A stretch of DNA of 64,000 nucleotides from Dehalogenimonas sp. WBC-2. GTDB taxonomy: Bacteria > Chloroflexota > Dehalococcoidia > Dehalococcoidales > Dehalococcoidaceae. Positions within the stretch are counted from its first letter, which is position 1; each line of letters opens with the position of its first letter. Both the position numbers and the translations under genes were made by a program. This document shows positions 13,589 through 20,454 of the stretch, one piece after another. The notes under the pieces were generated by a model. It was not told the DNA's origin, searched no databases, and was given only the letters and a program-made list of their open reading frames with translations. Location: positions 1 to 64,000 of the forward strand of contig CP011392.1 in assembly GCA_001005265.1 (NCBI GenBank), written 5' to 3'.

Positions 13589-13915
13589 ATGATTCTTCCA
13601 AAGGTTCTCGTTGCTTTGAGCGGAGGCGTTGATTCGGTCGTCGCTGCGATTCCACCGGGATTGGCCATCAAGTCGCCGATATAATGATGAAAATCTATAG
13701 CAGTGATGAGAAAACTACCGGAAAAACCGTCAGGCACGGATATTATGACCCCGACAAATTTGGAGACATCGAAGACCCCCGCAAAGTGGCTGACCTGGTA
13801 TCCACTTGGAAATCTCGATTTCAGCCGTTATTACAAGCATGTCATCCGGGATGAAAAAGAATTGGGCGAAATTCAAGAGTATATTCTTGCCAATTCTTTG
13901 AGATGGATGGAATAA
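13589..13915 (+). pseudogene. mnmA: broken tRNA 2-thiouridylase (MnmA-like) gene
   Basis: Starting at ATG 13589 the frame reads MILPKVLVALSGGVDSVVAA, the PP-loop ATP-binding motif of MnmA. It is then disrupted; a second frame continues as HQVADIMMKIYSSDEKTTGK and DPRKVADL, and a third as YPLGNLDFSRYYKHVIRDEK. Three frames over about 330 bp instead of one frame of about 1,080 bp mean frameshifts and a large deletion. MnmA takes sulfur from IscS-type desulfurases, so the gene probably once belonged to this operon. Confidence 0.75.
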
Positions 13916-13918
13916 CTT

Positions 13919-14056
13919 TCCACTTTCTGGAGTCTTACCCGGTTTACCTTTGTCTTTGATGTAATAGGTGGCGGCCTTAACTAACGCTCCATCCTTCCAA
14001 GTCGCTTGTATTAGCTATTTCTGGTACTTCTCCAAAACATACTGTCTCAATTTGAG
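13919..14056 (-). pseudogene. unidentified coding remnant
   Basis: Read leftward from 14056 the frame gives LKLRQYVLEKYQK, a TAG stop, then LIQATWKDGALVKAATYYIK and DKGKPGKTPESGK. The even amino-acid mix suggests a true protein fragment with a nonsense change (TAG perhaps from TGG), but I do not recognise the family. It lies directly after the mnmA remnant on the opposite strand. Confidence 0.3.
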
Positions 14057-14201
14057 TACAGACCATGTTGGATAGGTTCAAAGAGGAAAATGACCCGGGA
14101 TTTCAATTCCAAAGAACCTATTTTGGAATTACCCTATTTTGTTACCGAATAAATTAGGACTAGAATCAAATTATAAAGCATCTAATGAGAAAGAGATCAA
14201 C

Positions 14202-14441
14202 ATGAAGGCTAAAAGACTCCCGAGTATGGTAAAAAAGATGTTCGCCGAAGGTGAGATCACTATGGTTGATGCTGAAACGAAATACAGATATTCGCTGACA
14301 GCCAAGTGTCCCGAAGACGGGGAATATGCGTCGGTGGCAAGGTACGATAAATCAGGTCACTCACTAAAAAGAGTGGTCTTCAAATGCGAGATTTGTTCGA
14401 CTGAATTTGAGGTGCCCCAGTCAGAAATCATGGTGGTATAA
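14202..14441 (+). CDS. small zinc-ribbon-like protein of unknown function
   Basis: A 79-residue basic protein beginning MKAKRLPSMVKKMF with Cys at AKCPEDGE and a CEIC pair near the C-terminus, followed by EFEVPQSEIMVV. The layout (basic or hydrophobic start, then a C-terminal Cys4-type ribbon and a VPxSEI-like strand) resembles the tail of the DUF951 protein at 2822 and the protein at 15266. ATG 14202 is preferred over the TTG at 14139 because of the purine-rich AGAAAGAG just upstream. It sits among decayed DNA. Confidence 0.6.
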   Translation: MKAKRLPSMVKKMFAEGEITMVDAETKYRYSLTAKCPEDGEYASVARYDKSGHSLKRVVFKCEICSTEFEVPQSEIMVV

Positions 14442-14773
14442 GTATTGAGATTGGGTTCACCGTCTGTCTGGGTTACCCAAAGACGTGTCTCTCAGGCTTC
14501 ATGAGTTACTACGATATCAATTCATTCTGATTCGGTTCCTAACTACCTCCACTAATTGGACGTCGGAAATATTAAAGATAATAGTGATTACCAGTCCTCG
14601 GACGTTTAAATAGTACACTTTACCTTAAAACTAGGCAGTTCTTACAGTATATATTGGTAAACAAAACCGAATAATCGGGTAGTTTATCTAATATCGCCCG
14701 GCTATCTGGATTGATATTATCAATGAGCTGAGAAGTTCGATGATACCATCGGGTGCTGAGCGAAGGGGGCAGA
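14442..14773. other. intergenic gap without recognisable gene
   Basis: About 330 bp of AT-rich DNA between two small genes. I see no protein family, no tRNA and no clear terminator, apart from short dyads such as GGTGAACCCAATC-like pairs near 14455-14480. It probably belongs to the same decayed stretch as 13545-14140. Confidence 0.35.
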
Positions 14774-14983
14774 ATGCCTATCAAGATTGGATTATTTGCT
14801 GGGTTAATGCATGGTCTGGGGATTGGTCTGTTGTTGAAGGGATATATCATTTTGGGAATAGGCTGGTTTGCCATTGGGTTCGCCGTTGCATTTGCGCTGT
14901 ATATGAGAGTGAGGGAAGAGCAAAAAGTTGCTATGAAGACGCAGGCTTATCGTGATGCCAAGCATCACGATATAAAAAATTAG
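14774..14983 (+). CDS. small two-helix membrane protein of unknown function
   Basis: A 69-residue protein with hydrophobic segments at about 4-18 (IGLFAGLMHGLGIGL) and 22-43 (Gly/Ile/Phe/Ala-rich), followed by a charged, helical tail ending HHDIKN. ATG 14774 follows GAAGGGGGC; the frame also opens at 14753. I recognise no family; the helix pattern is too short for the anchor proteins of reductive dehalogenases. Confidence 0.5.
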   Translation: MPIKIGLFAGLMHGLGIGLLLKGYIILGIGWFAIGFAVAFALYMRVREEQKVAMKTQAYRDAKHHDIKN

Positions 14984-15265
14984 AGCATAAAACATACCAA
15001 GCCTCTTTTGATGAAGGCTTAAATGGCTTAAGCCTACTGAATCTATAATAACTGTTCTAGTAGTGCTAGACATTTTATTTGCTCACTTTCGGGAGTAAGA
15101 ACCCAGCGTGTGAGATCAGTTGAGCCCATATCACGAGTTGCTGCTGATAGGGTTTAGTCATAATCTTGTCCTTTTGATTTTCCACCGATGATTTCACGTC
15201 TAGAGTTGATTCCTCTTGGGATAGGCGACAGCGGTTTATAACGTTAGTCAATAGGTTCATCCAAT

Positions 15266-15550
15266 ATGTTAAAATACAAAATCGTTCCCCTTCTGCGGGG
15301 GAGCGTCAATCTAACTAGGAGATTAGAAGTGGTTGATATATCCGGGGTAACTATTGACGAACCGGCTCCAAAAACAAGACGAACCATTTTTACCGGTAAA
15401 ACGGTACCCATATTTAAAGGCGATGGCGAGATCAATGTGCTTTGTGGAAGTTGCAAGGCGGTGTTGTGTCAGGGTTTGACCAACAATAAAGTAGATAATA
15501 TAGTGATAAAATGCCCGGTGTGCCAGGGGTTTAATGAGGTAACTATTTAG
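15266..15550 (+). CDS. zinc-ribbon protein of unknown function
   Basis: A 94-residue protein whose C-terminal half holds two Cys pairs, LCGSCKAVLCQG and IKCPVCQGFNEV, a typical zinc ribbon. The N-terminal half is a beta-rich basic segment (ILK/RR/LEVV type). No catalytic motif is visible. It resembles the 14202 protein in general plan, so the two may be distant relatives. Confidence 0.6.
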   Translation: MLKYKIVPLLRGSVNLTRRLEVVDISGVTIDEPAPKTRRTIFTGKTVPIFKGDGEINVLCGSCKAVLCQGLTNNKVDNIVIKCPVCQGFNEVTI

Positions 15551-15575
15551 GGGTTTCCAAGGGACAAAGAGGAAG

Positions 15576-15730
15576 ACCCTTCGACAAGCTTCCCGAGTGC
15601 TAACTCGGGATAAACAGGGCGACCCTTCGACTTCGCTCAGGGTGAACGTAATATTAAAGGACTCTTCGACATGCTCACTGACCTTCGGTCAGTACAAGCC
15701 CGAGTGCCAACTCGGGGCGGGCAGGACTGG
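15576..15730. repeat. dispersed palindromic repeat cluster
   Basis: Two copies of a CCCTTCGAC core (15577-, 15621-) and a diverged third (CTCTTCGAC near 15661) are interleaved with small dyads: CCGAGTGCTAACTCGG, CTGACCTTCGGTCAG and CCGAGTGCCAACTCGG. The CTTCGAC...GCTCAGGGTGAAC type of unit is a common intergenic repeat in many bacterial genomes. It may help end transcription of both the 15266 gene and the converging heliorhodopsin gene. Confidence 0.6.
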
Positions 15731-15735
15731 TCTAA

Positions 15736-16503
15736 CTAGGTGGGGATCAGCACCGGGAAAAATACCTGCCAGGCGAGCAGGGCTTTGGCTGTACCGCTGA
15801 GGATGATGTAAACTCTCTCACCAAAGAGATAGTCCCGCCAGGGGCCGACCTGTTTGTACTGGAGATACATATTCAGGGCAAAGCAGTTGAAGAAGATGAA
15901 TAACGAGATGATGATGCCGTAAACGAATCCGGGCGGTGAGATGCTGAGTCCTGGCGCTATGACATAGATGACGATGGCGATCCAGGGGATGATGCCGGCA
16001 AAACTGCCGAACCAGAAGGGCAGAAAGCTGGGTTTACCCGGCTTTTCGTATTTTTCCTGTAACAGGCCGAAAAGGATCATTGAGGCGTTGACGCCGAAGA
16101 TAGCCAGCAGGGCGGCGATCTCAGAGATGCCGGTAATCTGGGCGATGAGGACGATCATGATTGATGAGCTGAAGAAATACTCTATCCAGCGGCCATAGTT
16201 GCGGCTCTGCAGCAGGTTACGCTTATACCACGGAAAGACGGCCGGTGAAGCCATAATGAGAAGGGCACCGGCGGAGATGGCGAGGAAAGTGAAGACGCCC
16301 CAGCCGGTGGCGATGCTGAATAGGGTATGAAGTTCCGGTGGGGTGCCGGGTGGTCCGCTGATGAAGGTGGCGGTCACCGGAAGAGAGAAGTCATTGGTCA
16401 GGACGGCGATGGCGACGGCCTGGACGGCCAGAATCAGGCCGACGACGATGTTCCAGACGCGGAGGCTTTTTATCCGCGCTTCAGAATACAGGTCAGCGAT
16501 CAT
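15736..16503 (-). CDS. heliorhodopsin
   Basis: A seven-helix retinal protein of the heliorhodopsin family, which sits in the membrane inverted relative to type 1 rhodopsins. The 255-residue protein has the family signatures RWIEYFFSSSIMIVLIA (105-121, Glu108 as probable counterion), FGVNASMILFGLL (136-148), LPFWFGSFAGIIPWIAI, SLFIFFNCFALNMYLQY and GPWRDYLFGERVY. The retinal lysine is in SGTAKALLAWQVF (Lys240). AAAGGAG precedes the ATG by 6-7 nt. No retinal synthesis gene (blh, crtY) lies in the window. It is alone on its strand, facing the TPR gene. The family role (signalling, transport or enzyme partner) is unsettled. Confidence 0.93.
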   Translation of the reverse strand: MIADLYSEARIKSLRVWNIVVGLILAVQAVAIAVLTNDFSLPVTATFISGPPGTPPELHTLFSIATGWGVFTFLAISAGALLIMASPAVFPWYKRNLLQSRNYGRWIEYFFSSSIMIVLIAQITGISEIAALLAIFGVNASMILFGLLQEKYEKPGKPSFLPFWFGSFAGIIPWIAIVIYVIAPGLSISPPGFVYGIIISLFIFFNCFALNMYLQYKQVGPWRDYLFGERVYIILSGTAKALLAWQVFFPVLIPT

Positions 16504-16677
16504 AAAAGGCTCCTTTTGACGGCGTATTATTTTTCGCGGCTTTCCAAGGTTTGCCGATATTAATTATACATAAATATTCAGTAATGTAGTGTTTTTGTAT
16601 GAACAACTATGTAATATCATGTGCCACAGTTGGTAATGGTGACGCACAAGATGATAATCATCAAGGGGGGAAACATA

Positions 16678-17100
16678 TTGGAAATTGATGTCAACAATCC
16701 GGTGGTGAAGTTATGCGGGGAGGGGATACAGGCTGAGTTAGCAGGCAGAACGACAGAAGCTATAGAACTGTGTACCCGGGCGTGGGAGATGAGGAAAGAC
16801 GATTACGATGCCTGTATTGCGGCTCATTATATGGCACGGTATCAGGAAAACGCCGAAGATACGCTTAAATGGAACATGAGGGCACTGGAACATGCCGCGG
16901 CGGTGGATAAACGCGTCTTGGGGTTCTATGCCTCACTGTACTTGAATGTTGGGAAGTCCAATGAAGACCTTGGTAATTTGCCGGAGGCAAGGCACTATTA
17001 CGAGCTGGCATCGGCGAAACTGGATATGGTTCCGGACGGGGAATATAAGGAAACGCTGAAAAGCGGGATCAAAACGGCGCTTGAGCGAGTCGGTGAATAA
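16678..17100 (+). CDS. TPR-like helical repeat protein
   Basis: A soluble, all-helical protein of 140 aa with tetratricopeptide-like pairs: LAGRTTEAIELCTRAWEM, DACIAAHYMARYQENAED and EDLGNLPEARHYYELASAKL. TPRs mediate protein-protein contacts; no enzyme motif is seen. The start is taken as TTG 16678 because AAGGGGGG lies 7 nt upstream; the frame is open from GTG 16621. A decayed copy of its middle part lies at 19464-19577, on the other side of the kinase gene. Confidence 0.75.
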   Translation: MEIDVNNPVVKLCGEGIQAELAGRTTEAIELCTRAWEMRKDDYDACIAAHYMARYQENAEDTLKWNMRALEHAAAVDKRVLGFYASLYLNVGKSNEDLGNLPEARHYYELASAKLDMVPDGEYKETLKSGIKTALERVGE

Positions 17101-17136: not shown

Positions 17137-19245
17137 TCACGTGTCGTCAATCATTCGGCGGACAGCCTGGAGAAGGTCTGAGATCGAATAGGGTTTCTGG
17201 AGATAGTGGTAGCCTGATCCGGCGATTTTATCCCGGTTGTTCAATGATCCGACATAGGCGCTGCTCAAGATGACACGGGTGCCGGGGCGCAGATTATGGA
17301 CGAGATCCATCCCGGTGCCGTCGGGCAGGACGACGTCCGAGACGATCAGGTCAATATCGGCATGACGTTTGAGGGTTTCTTGCGCTGTGGCGAGGCTTTC
17401 CGCAGTGTAGACGATGTAGTCCCGGCTCCTGAGGACCCTGGAGGCGAAATCATTGACTAATCTATCATCGTCGACAACAAGTATCTTCTCATTTTTACCG
17501 GACGGGTCGGGCTGCATCTTCGGCGGATTATCGGTGCAAGTGCCGGCATCCTCCTCAGAGACGGGCAGATAGATGCGAAAAACGGTGCCCTTATCCGGTT
17601 CGCTGTAGACATTGACAAAGCCATGGTGCGATTTGACCACACCGTAAACGACAGCCAACCCAAGTCCGGTGCCTTTGCCCTCCGGCTTGGTGCTGAAGAA
17701 AGGTTCAAATATATGCGCGATTGTCTCCTTGTTCATACCAATACCGGTGTCTTCCATCGAGAAACAGACGTAATTTCCCGGTTTGAAATCGGCGTTCATC
17801 AGGTAGTGATCCTCATCCAGGTAAATATTCTCCGTCTTGATGGTTAGGTTTCCACCGTCCGGCATGGCGTCCGAGGCATTCACCGCCAGGTTCATCATCA
17901 CCTGTTCCAGCTGATTGTGGTCGCCGCGGATCTCAAGAATCCCTTCACCCGGCAGAAAGTTGAAATTGATGTTGGCGCGGACGATGTGGCGTAAGAGTTT
18001 TTCGACACCCGTTATGACATCGTTGAGGCAGATGATTTCATCCTGTGTCTCGTGACGGCGGCTGAACACCATGAGTTGCTGGGTCAGTTTAGCGGCCCGC
18101 TCCCCGGCATGAATGACCTCGGTGATGTTTTCTTTTATCTGTTCTTTGTCGTCAAGGTCATAAAGGGTCATCTCTGCATAGCCCAGGATGCCGGTCAGCA
18201 GATTGTTAAAGTCATGGGCGACACCCCCGGCCAACTGGCCGACGGCTTCCATCTTCTGTGATTGGATGAGAGCAGCCTGAATCTTTTCCCTCTCTTCTTC
18301 AGTGCGGTGGCGGAGTTTGCGCTCATAGGCATACTCACGGCGCTTCGCGGCCAGTTCTGATGTGCGGCGCCGGATGCTGATGCGGAGTCGGGCGGAGGTC
18401 AGAATGAACAGCCCCAGGATGAGAAGGGTTATGCCCATGACCCAGAATACCCAGGGCTGAATCACCGATTTTTCGACAACCGGACTTTCAATCCAGCGCA
18501 TTAAGGCCTGGTGGTAGATGGAATCAGGATCGGCTTTCATCTCCGCCAGATATGCGTCGATTGTGGAGATCAGCTCCGTGTGTCTGCCTTTGGTGAAAGC
18601 GAAACGGATTTCGATGGGATTGAAAATAATATCACTGGGAATCACGTCGTATTCAGGCGCGAGGCGGAGGGCTACTAACCGGTTGACGATGCCCGCCTCG
18701 GCGGTACCGTCTGTGAGGGCGGCGAACACAGCGTCATAACTGTCCAGTTCCTCGAAGACGCAATTGATACCGAATAACTGGGTCTGTTTTTGAAAGGCCG
18801 AGTAATGGATATCATCTCTGACGGCGGCGATGGTGCGGCCATTCAGATCAAGGATTGAGGTGACGCCGCTGCCTTTAGGCAGATATATCCGGGCCCAGTT
18901 GGAGATGATGTTTATAGAATTGAAATCAAAAAGCTGCTGCCGATCGGCATTCACCCCGACCGAAACGAGGATGTCGATGGCGCCGGTTTCCAGCATGTCC
19001 AGTCCGTCGCTGAAGATAAGGGGGACGTACTCTATGTTCCAGGACTCAGCTTTGGCAATGCTGTCCAGGACTTCAATGAAAATGCCCTGAGGTTTGCCGT
19101 CTTCTTCCCAGAAGACCTGCGGGTGATTCTGGTAGATACCGACCCGGATGGAAGGAGTTTGGGCATGTGCAGGCAATGCCCCAGCGCAGAGAAAGAGAAT
19201 TGACGCAAGGCATCCCATTATTAACCGATGAATGGGCAGCGGCAT
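17137..19245 (-). CDS. hybrid sensor histidine kinase with periplasmic solute-binding sensor domain
   Basis: Membrane sensor kinase of 702 aa. It has a signal peptide (1-28, ending AHA), a type-3 extracellular solute-binding domain (about 31-255, starting [14 protein letters not shown]), one membrane helix (264-286), a coiled linker, a HisKA domain with the phosphorylated His344 ([11 protein letters not shown]), an ATPase domain with DTGIGMN and [11 protein letters not shown], and a C-terminal receiver domain with Asp637 ([10 protein letters not shown]). The binding domain suggests sensing of a small polar ligand such as an amino acid. The receiver at the end implies a phosphorelay to an unlinked partner. 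AGGAG precedes the start; an 11-bp tandem operator lies upstream. Confidence 0.92.
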
Positions 19246-19463: not shown

Positions 19464-19577
19464 ATTGATGCCTGTATAGCAGCTCATTATATGGTGCCGT
19501 ATCGGGATAACACCGAAGATAGGCTCAAGTGGGACATGAGGGTGGGGACGTTCGATGAACGCGTGAGGCTTCATTGA
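19464..19577 (+). pseudogene. decayed partial copy of the TPR gene
   Basis: The frame encodes DACIAAHYMVPYRDNTED then RLKWDMRV and DERV, matching DACIAAHYMARYQENAED, TLKWNMRA and DKRV of the protein at 16678. Only about 35 codons of the repeat region remain, with no start or ribosome site and a small internal deletion. It indicates an old duplication spanning the kinase locus. Confidence 0.7.
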
Positions 19578-19608: not shown

Positions 19609-20454
19609 GTGATAGTTGACTTTCACACTCATATTTTCTCCCCGGAACTCATTGCCCGGCGTGATGAATATGCCGCTAATGACAAGTGTTTTAGTCTGCT
19701 GTACGGCAGCGCTAAAGCCAAGCTGCGGACGGCTGAAGAGCTAATTGCCGGGATGGATGCAAGCGGTGCTGACATGGCCGTTATTCAGAATATCGGCTGG
19801 ACGAACCATGAACGGTGCGTGGAGACCAATGATTATCTCCTGGAAGCGCGGGCGAAATATCCCAATCGGCTGATTACTTTTATTTCGGTGCAGCCAGCGG
19901 ACATAAGATCGATAGACGAGATAACACGTTGTGCGGCGGCGGGGGCGAAAGGCGTCGGGGAGCTCCGGCCGGATGTGCAGGGGTTTGAACTGAACAACCG
20001 GGTGGTCATGGATCCTTTTATCGGCACGCTGGTCGAACAAAACCTGATATTGTCCTGCCATGCTGATGAGCCTCTTGGGCATGATTATCCGGGCAAAGGC
20101 GGCGTGACTCCCGAGATACTCTTTCCGTTTATTGAACGATACCCGGATTTGAAATTAGCGCTGGCGCACTGGGGCGGCGGACTGCCTTTTTATACGCTGA
20201 TGCCGGAAGTGAAGAAAGCGCTGAAGAATGTATGGTTTGACAGCGCGGCGACGCCTTTCTTATATCAGGCCACGGTGTATGAACGCGCGGCAGACCTGAT
20301 TGGAGCAGACAAGATACTATTTGGTACCGACTGGCCTCTACTTGGTCAGCGGCGGTGCATAGAAGAGCTCCAGGCCCTGAATCTGTCGATGCAGACATTA
20401 AACGCTATCCTCGGCGGCAACGCCGAGGCGCTGTTTAGGTTGAACGAGCGATGA
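19609..20454 (+). CDS. amidohydrolase family 2 metal-dependent hydrolase
   Basis: A TIM-barrel hydrolase or decarboxylase of the ACMSD/amidohydrolase-2 group, 281 aa. Visible metal-site motifs are DFHTHIF (residues 4-10), a His in LSCHADEP, a His in LALAHWGGG and the Asp in FGTDWPLLG near the C-terminus. The substrate cannot be told from sequence. The stop overlaps thpR by 4 nt, so they are co-transcribed. The start is GTG 19609. Confidence 0.85.
   Translation: MIVDFHTHIFSPELIARRDEYAANDKCFSLLYGSAKAKLRTAEELIAGMDASGADMAVIQNIGWTNHERCVETNDYLLEARAKYPNRLITFISVQPADIRSIDEITRCAAAGAKGVGELRPDVQGFELNNRVVMDPFIGTLVEQNLILSCHADEPLGHDYPGKGGVTPEILFPFIERYPDLKLALAHWGGGLPFYTLMPEVKKALKNVWFDSAATPFLYQATVYERAADLIGADKILFGTDWPLLGQRRCIEELQALNLSMQTLNAILGGNAEALFRLNER

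Follow-up and report, generated by a model that had tools for sequence, protein, structure and literature searches.

The heliorhodopsin of Dehalogenimonas sp. WBC-2 belongs to a single clade in which both histidines of the Schiff-base cavity are replaced by leucine (hereafter Leu/Leu), and its host, a strict anaerobe, has none of the known genes for making retinal. We favour, with modest confidence, the reading that the protein is a functional, conserved photosensor that would work on scavenged retinal and whose output would be lipid or photo-oxidative protection. The window, i.e. the whole stretch of 64,000 nucleotides analysed here, runs from position 1 to 64000 of one 1,725,728-bp contig, a closed chromosome (99.75% complete) that starts at dnaA; the genome has been reported at 1.73 Mb, and its RefSeq record is suppressed (PMC13390414). 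The features at the locus, compared with the congeneric genome G006, are as follows.

15266..15550, plus strand: small zinc-ribbon protein, convergent neighbour of heliorhodopsin, syntenic in G006 (64% identical)
15551..15735, no strand: heliorhodopsin 3' region, with two copies of the palindrome CCCGAGTGCYAACTCGGG at 15592 and 15699
15736..16503, minus strand: heliorhodopsin, uninterrupted ORF of 255 aa
16504..16620, no strand: divergent intergenic gap of 117 bp, A+T-rich, between heliorhodopsin and the TPR gene
16621..17100, plus strand: TPR-like protein of 159 aa, divergent from heliorhodopsin
17137..19245, minus strand: hybrid sensor histidine kinase (SBP_bac_3, HisKA, HATPase_c and response regulator)
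19467..19566, plus strand: relic of a second TPR gene, with 84% DNA identity over 76 nt to 16807-16882
19609..20454, plus strand: amidohydrolase, 72% identical in G006, a synteny anchor

The first-pass annotation had placed a heliorhodopsin at 15736-16503 without giving its strand, and family models together with the predicted fold confirm the gene as a genuine heliorhodopsin. The window protein scores 311 bits against PF18761 (cut-off 26.7) and 318.5 bits against the NCBIfam equivalog NF038020, ‘heliorhodopsin HeR’ (cut-off 100). Its AlphaFold2 model (mean pLDDT 87) shows seven transmembrane helices along with the A-B hairpin; the TM-score of the model to 48C12 (6su4) is 0.90, clearly above type-1 rhodopsins. 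The nearest solved structures are 48C12 itself (6su3/6su4/6uh3), a protein of the same family and fold from an uncultured actinobacterium that is 54-55% identical, and TaHeR of a Thermoplasmatales archaeon (6is6, 7u55), which also has the same fold. Lysine and arginine residues number 4, 3 and 2 in the B-C, D-E and F-G loops and 0 in the A-B, C-D and E-F loops; since the positive charge is confined to the former, the positive-inside rule predicts an inverted topology with a cytoplasmic N-terminus. The two motifs used to define heliorhodopsins (PMC9601134) are found as S236-K240 (SxxxK, TM7) and E108, S112 and L119 (E-S-L, TM3), so that family models, fold, topology and motifs all place the protein among the heliorhodopsins.

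Most of the retinal pocket is retained. E108 aligns to the counterion E107 of 48C12 and K240 to its Schiff-base lysine K241, as annotated, and S77/S112/S236, R105, E150, E229, W245 and Q28 are kept as well; the GPPG motif of the A-B loop, the E/K/S/R network and the Q26-W246 pair are common to both proteins. The equivalents of S76, R104, W105, S237 and W173 are invariant in a 91-sequence set, and those of Trp246, Gln26, Asn16 and Tyr92 also stay conserved. Loss of Lys240, which had been named as a ground for refutation, was never seen: counterion glutamate and retinal lysine are invariant in 144/144 heliorhodopsins, all anaerobe lineages included. The earlier statement that all family signatures are present holds for K240, E108, SxxxK and E-S-L and fails for the cavity histidines, because H23 and H80 of 48C12 correspond to L25 and L81. 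These histidines are common in heliorhodopsins but are not accepted as defining, and a retinal-competent heliorhodopsin in a Dehalococcoidia anaerobe remains supported. Moreover, dN/dS (Nei-Gojobori) ranges from 0.03 to 0.11 over the 11 measurable heliorhodopsin pairs, which include both types, and two further pairs were saturated; the measured values indicate strong purifying selection on the gene.

The replacement of the two histidines is not scattered over the family. Among 144 heliorhodopsins from Dehalococcoidia and their nearest relatives, surveyed at positions 23 and 80, 91 are His/His, 51 are Leu/Leu and none is mixed, while the remaining two are truncated and have Leu at position 80. 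Just four alignment columns distinguish the Leu/Leu group from the other members of the 91-sequence set, positions 23 and 80 among them. The group forms one clade with 100/100 support even when these four diagnostic columns are removed, and the tree requires one change, hence multiple origins of the Leu/Leu state are rejected. The window protein, with Leu at both positions, falls inside this clade, whose members come from Dehalococcoidia and actinobacterial MAGs. The Dehalococcoidia sequences (32 rows, 99/94) are nested within a grade of actinobacterial MAG sequences, which is consistent with transfer from Actinomycetota. Heliorhodopsins of MAGs labelled Thermoleophilia (L035, L063 and L071), for instance, are Leu/Leu members of the same clade and 65-83% identical to the window protein, but belong to another phylum. 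Judging by their record names, many members may come from fens, bogs, lake sediment, groundwater, springs and digesters. The Leu/Leu clade is a new point: our literature search, in which an earlier mention may have been missed, returned neither a prior report of the type nor experimental work on one of its proteins.

Both types occur within Dehalogenimonas. The window genome, G004, G005 and G006 have Leu/Leu proteins (the latter three 79-83% identical to the window protein), whereas those of G001, G003 and G007 are His/His and just 46-49% identical to it, indicating that members of the genus hold heliorhodopsins of separate descent. Two genomes of another Dehalococcoidia family, G147 (L165/L180) and G209 (L182/L184), have a His/His and a Leu/Leu copy each, the Leu/Leu copy of G209 being cut by a contig end. 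The MAG Zod_Metabat.597 (L053, L067) has two Leu/Leu genes, whose products share 74% and 84% identity with the window protein. Only two viral contigs with heliorhodopsins were found, both His/His.

The Schiff-base cavity of 48C12 contains H23 and H80, which have been proposed to accept the proton and to initiate a relay toward Gln26 and Trp246 (PMC9726877, PMC9385722). In TaHeR, a cavity water/anion site and a putative signalling path via His-23 have been described (PMC9385722), at a position that is Leu in the Leu/Leu clade. The photocycle of 48C12 is slower in the H23F and H80F mutants (PMC9726877), and H23A/H80A retains the 550-nm pigment (PMC6951262); from these mutants we predict that a Leu/Leu protein is a slow but functional photosensor. 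One group, however, reported H23/H80 to be non-essential for proton transfer (PMC6951262), in conflict with the acceptor view, and the switch to Leu/Leu may accordingly have little effect. The window protein would sit in the membrane with its N-terminus inside, bind its retinal through K240, E108 being the counterion, and absorb green light. With Leu in place of both cavity histidines, the Schiff-base proton would be expected to remain close to E108 and the cavity water, and the photocycle to be slow; the signal cannot leave by the His23-to-Trp246 relay that has been proposed for 48C12 and TaHeR.

The host is supported as a strict anaerobe that respires organohalides: its genome has 21 reductive-dehalogenase family matches, and the type strain of D. 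alkenigignens is an obligate anaerobe (PMC4918011). The first-pass annotation had regarded a light sensor as unexpected in such an organism. This does not hold for the group, in which heliorhodopsin is found in 7/8 genomes of the genus (missing from G002), 3/3 of the sister genus (putatively Dehalococcoides), 21/61 close relatives and 82/394 sampled Dehalococcoidia; a distribution this wide makes the protein normal in an anaerobe of this class. Nor is the presence of heliorhodopsin in a strict anaerobe new in substance. It has been described in strictly anaerobic Firmicutes (PMC8612252), and DaHeR of D. alkenigignens, from the same genus and family and likewise from a strict anaerobe, was expressed in E. 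coli in 2021 and formed a 539-nm pigment with added retinal (PMC7807009), the sole such measurement for the genus. If G007 is that strain, DaHeR is His/His with a polar A-B loop and ~47% identical to the window protein, which in contrast is Leu/Leu with GPPG. Contamination of the contig from a surface organism, raised earlier as a risk, was rejected as very unlikely: the chromosome is closed, and the genes on either side of heliorhodopsin are syntenic with G006.

The earlier expectation that Blh-type retinal synthesis would be out of place here was borne out, and the gap extends further. Phytoene synthase (PF00494) was found in none of the 11 genomes of the genus and family, compared with 7/14 control genomes in which it was detected; Blh (PF15461) was absent from 61 genomes, although the same method detects it in 2/12 actinobacteria; and no RPE65-type carotenoid oxygenase was found in 22 genomes. 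All three are absent from the host, which, unlike that of 48C12, has no carotenoid pathway at all. Lack of phytoene synthase implies lack of C40 carotenoids and hence of any known route to retinal. The absence of every known retinal gene alongside strong selection on the retinal pocket is likewise new. Carotenoid synthesis is rare across hosts of the Leu/Leu clade, with phytoene synthase in 1/20 Dehalococcoidia and 4/17 actinobacterial genomes (among the latter the Thermoleophilia-labelled MAGs) versus 14/18 His/His actinobacteria. Leu/Leu is not a clean marker of carotenoid loss, as His/His members of the same family are also without carotenoids.

Rhodopsin hosts are often without their own retinal synthesis, for which the usual answer is exogenous retinal, and scavenged retinal has been proposed for aquatic actinobacteria that lack Blh (PMC12422013). 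Scavenging seems the simplest reading for this host too: as it has no known route to retinal, the protein would be assembled from retinal taken up from the surroundings, e.g. from the necromass of carotenoid makers. An oxygen-independent route as yet undescribed, leading to retinal or to another polyene aldehyde chromophore, would also reconcile a selected pocket with missing synthesis genes, and the scarcity of carotenoid synthesis in the clade fits it. We find this barely plausible, since the C40 precursor would require phytoene synthase, the window shows no candidate gene in linkage with heliorhodopsin, and reliance on exogenous retinal is so common. More serious, if still rather unlikely, is a role that dispenses with retinal, in which the apo-opsin would act as a membrane scaffold or regulate a partner protein and light would be irrelevant in a dark habitat. 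It draws on the missing retinal pathway in genome, genus and family, on the dark, anoxic surroundings, and on gene partners in relatives (below) that look lipid-related rather than photic. However, an apo-protein has no known need for the Schiff-base lysine and counterion kept in all 144 sequences, and DaHeR does bind added retinal.

We return to the photosensor reading and its possible output. The TPR protein and sensor kinase adjoining heliorhodopsin, pointed out in the first-pass annotation, are indeed there, but the comparison of neighbours that it recommended shows that they are not kept beside heliorhodopsin in relatives, and a conserved operon of the three is therefore rejected. The hybrid kinase is found at none of the relatives' heliorhodopsin loci examined. 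In G006 a TPR gene is also near heliorhodopsin, at the opposite end of the operon, and the amidohydrolase directly flanks that operon (heliorhodopsin-DegV-DUF1295-DUF2177); in the window, the TPR gene has heliorhodopsin on its other flank, and the hybrid kinase occupies the corresponding site. The TPR relic just upstream of the amidohydrolase gene is a sign of local duplication and rearrangement. A two-component photoreceptor formed by heliorhodopsin, kinase and TPR protein has in its favour the adjacency of the genes and the over-representation of two-component genes around the heliorhodopsins of several phyla, Chloroflexi among them (PMC8612252). It is nevertheless very unlikely, given that the kinase has a periplasmic SBP_bac_3 sensor of its own and is missing from the loci of relatives; moreover, the three genes do not form one transcript, as the TPR gene separates the other two and is read from the opposite strand.

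The convergent zinc-ribbon gene and the palindromes on its 3' side suggest that heliorhodopsin is transcribed alone. A REP-like stretch, CTTCGACTTCGCTCAGGG, also lies 3' of the gene within 15592-15716. The promoters of both heliorhodopsin and the TPR gene are presumed to lie in the 117-bp gap, where no convincing sigma-70 match was found. Nearby, 13700-15260 is A+T-rich (GC 0.44) with small ORFs only, one of them without a Pfam match. No tRNA is present in the 64-kb window, and tRNA-associated integration of the region was rejected on that ground.

A different set of partners is found in relatives. G003, G004, G006 and G007 appear to have their heliorhodopsin, DegV, DUF1295 and DUF2177 genes in one operon, and the same cassette accompanies Leu/Leu (G004/G006) and His/His (G003/G007) proteins. 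DUF2177 lies at most 1.8 kb from heliorhodopsin in eight genomes (G003, G004, G006-G011), as in the DUF2177-type heliorhodopsin operons already described (PMC11109279). Among 61 relatives, 10 of the 11 genomes with DUF2177 also have heliorhodopsin (Fisher p 3e-5, and 0.003 among more complete genomes, both uncorrected for kinship). The order heliorhodopsin-DegV-DUF1295 of G006 recurs in the actinobacterial MAG sequence L063 (4257-5000 and downstream). In addition, an unnamed hydrophobic membrane protein of ~178 aa without Pfam match adjoins heliorhodopsin and DegV at ~10 Dehalococcoidia loci, for instance:

L109, 9246-9785: ~178-aa membrane protein
L117, 6818-7348: ~178-aa membrane protein
L120, 10072-10608: ~178-aa membrane protein

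The ten neighbour groups listed in PMC11109279 include neither DegV nor DUF1295, and the DegV/DUF1295/DUF2177 cassette is a new point. Its DegV proteins resemble the fatty-acid carrier FakB. Genes of the DUF2177, DUF1295 and DUF1365 families are induced by singlet oxygen in Chlamydomonas (PMC4067076), and furan fatty acids of Dehalococcoides have been proposed to protect against free radicals (White 2005, as cited in PMC6222795). Taken with the linkage to a DegV/FakB-type protein, DUF1295 and DUF2177, these reports suggest that the output is most likely protection of membrane lipids or against photo-oxidation. In this reading heliorhodopsin would sense light exposure facultatively and would not convert energy. 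A point against a photo-oxidative output is that singlet oxygen requires O2, and a strict anaerobe encounters O2 only by accident.

The window genome, unlike the published operons, has no DUF2177; DUF1295 is missing too, and its DegV paralogues are distant (45% or less), so evidence from the partners is not directly applicable to it. Here the cassette partners have been lost and heliorhodopsin is left alone. G001 and G005 are also without the cassette, and G002, the member without heliorhodopsin, has a truncated DUF1295 gene (L130, 5826-6206) that is possibly the remnant of a lost cassette. Such losses would fit a relict gene, useful to an ancestor nearer the light and now decaying in organohalide respirers. 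We consider decay improbable, as the dN/dS values are low, the pocket is intact, and so are the ORFs in every genome of the genus and sister genus that carries the gene. Observations that count against the photosensor reading itself are that light is scarce in the groundwater or sediment enrichments of the host and that G002 does without the gene.

A wider proposal, possible although we advance it only tentatively, is that the Leu/Leu clade, with its largely carotenoid-less hosts, may run a different, long-lived low-light cycle on scavenged retinal and regulate a DegV/DUF1295/DUF2177 lipid-protection module. The function of heliorhodopsins has yet to be settled, and in the leading mechanistic models the signal passes via His80 and His23. 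A natural clade that lacks both histidines, with 51 sampled members, means that this relay is not universal and offers ready-made test proteins. It also raises the question of how obligate anaerobes without carotenoids get retinal, or manage without it, and since cultures of Dehalogenimonas and Dehalococcoides exist and both find use in bioremediation, this question is directly testable.
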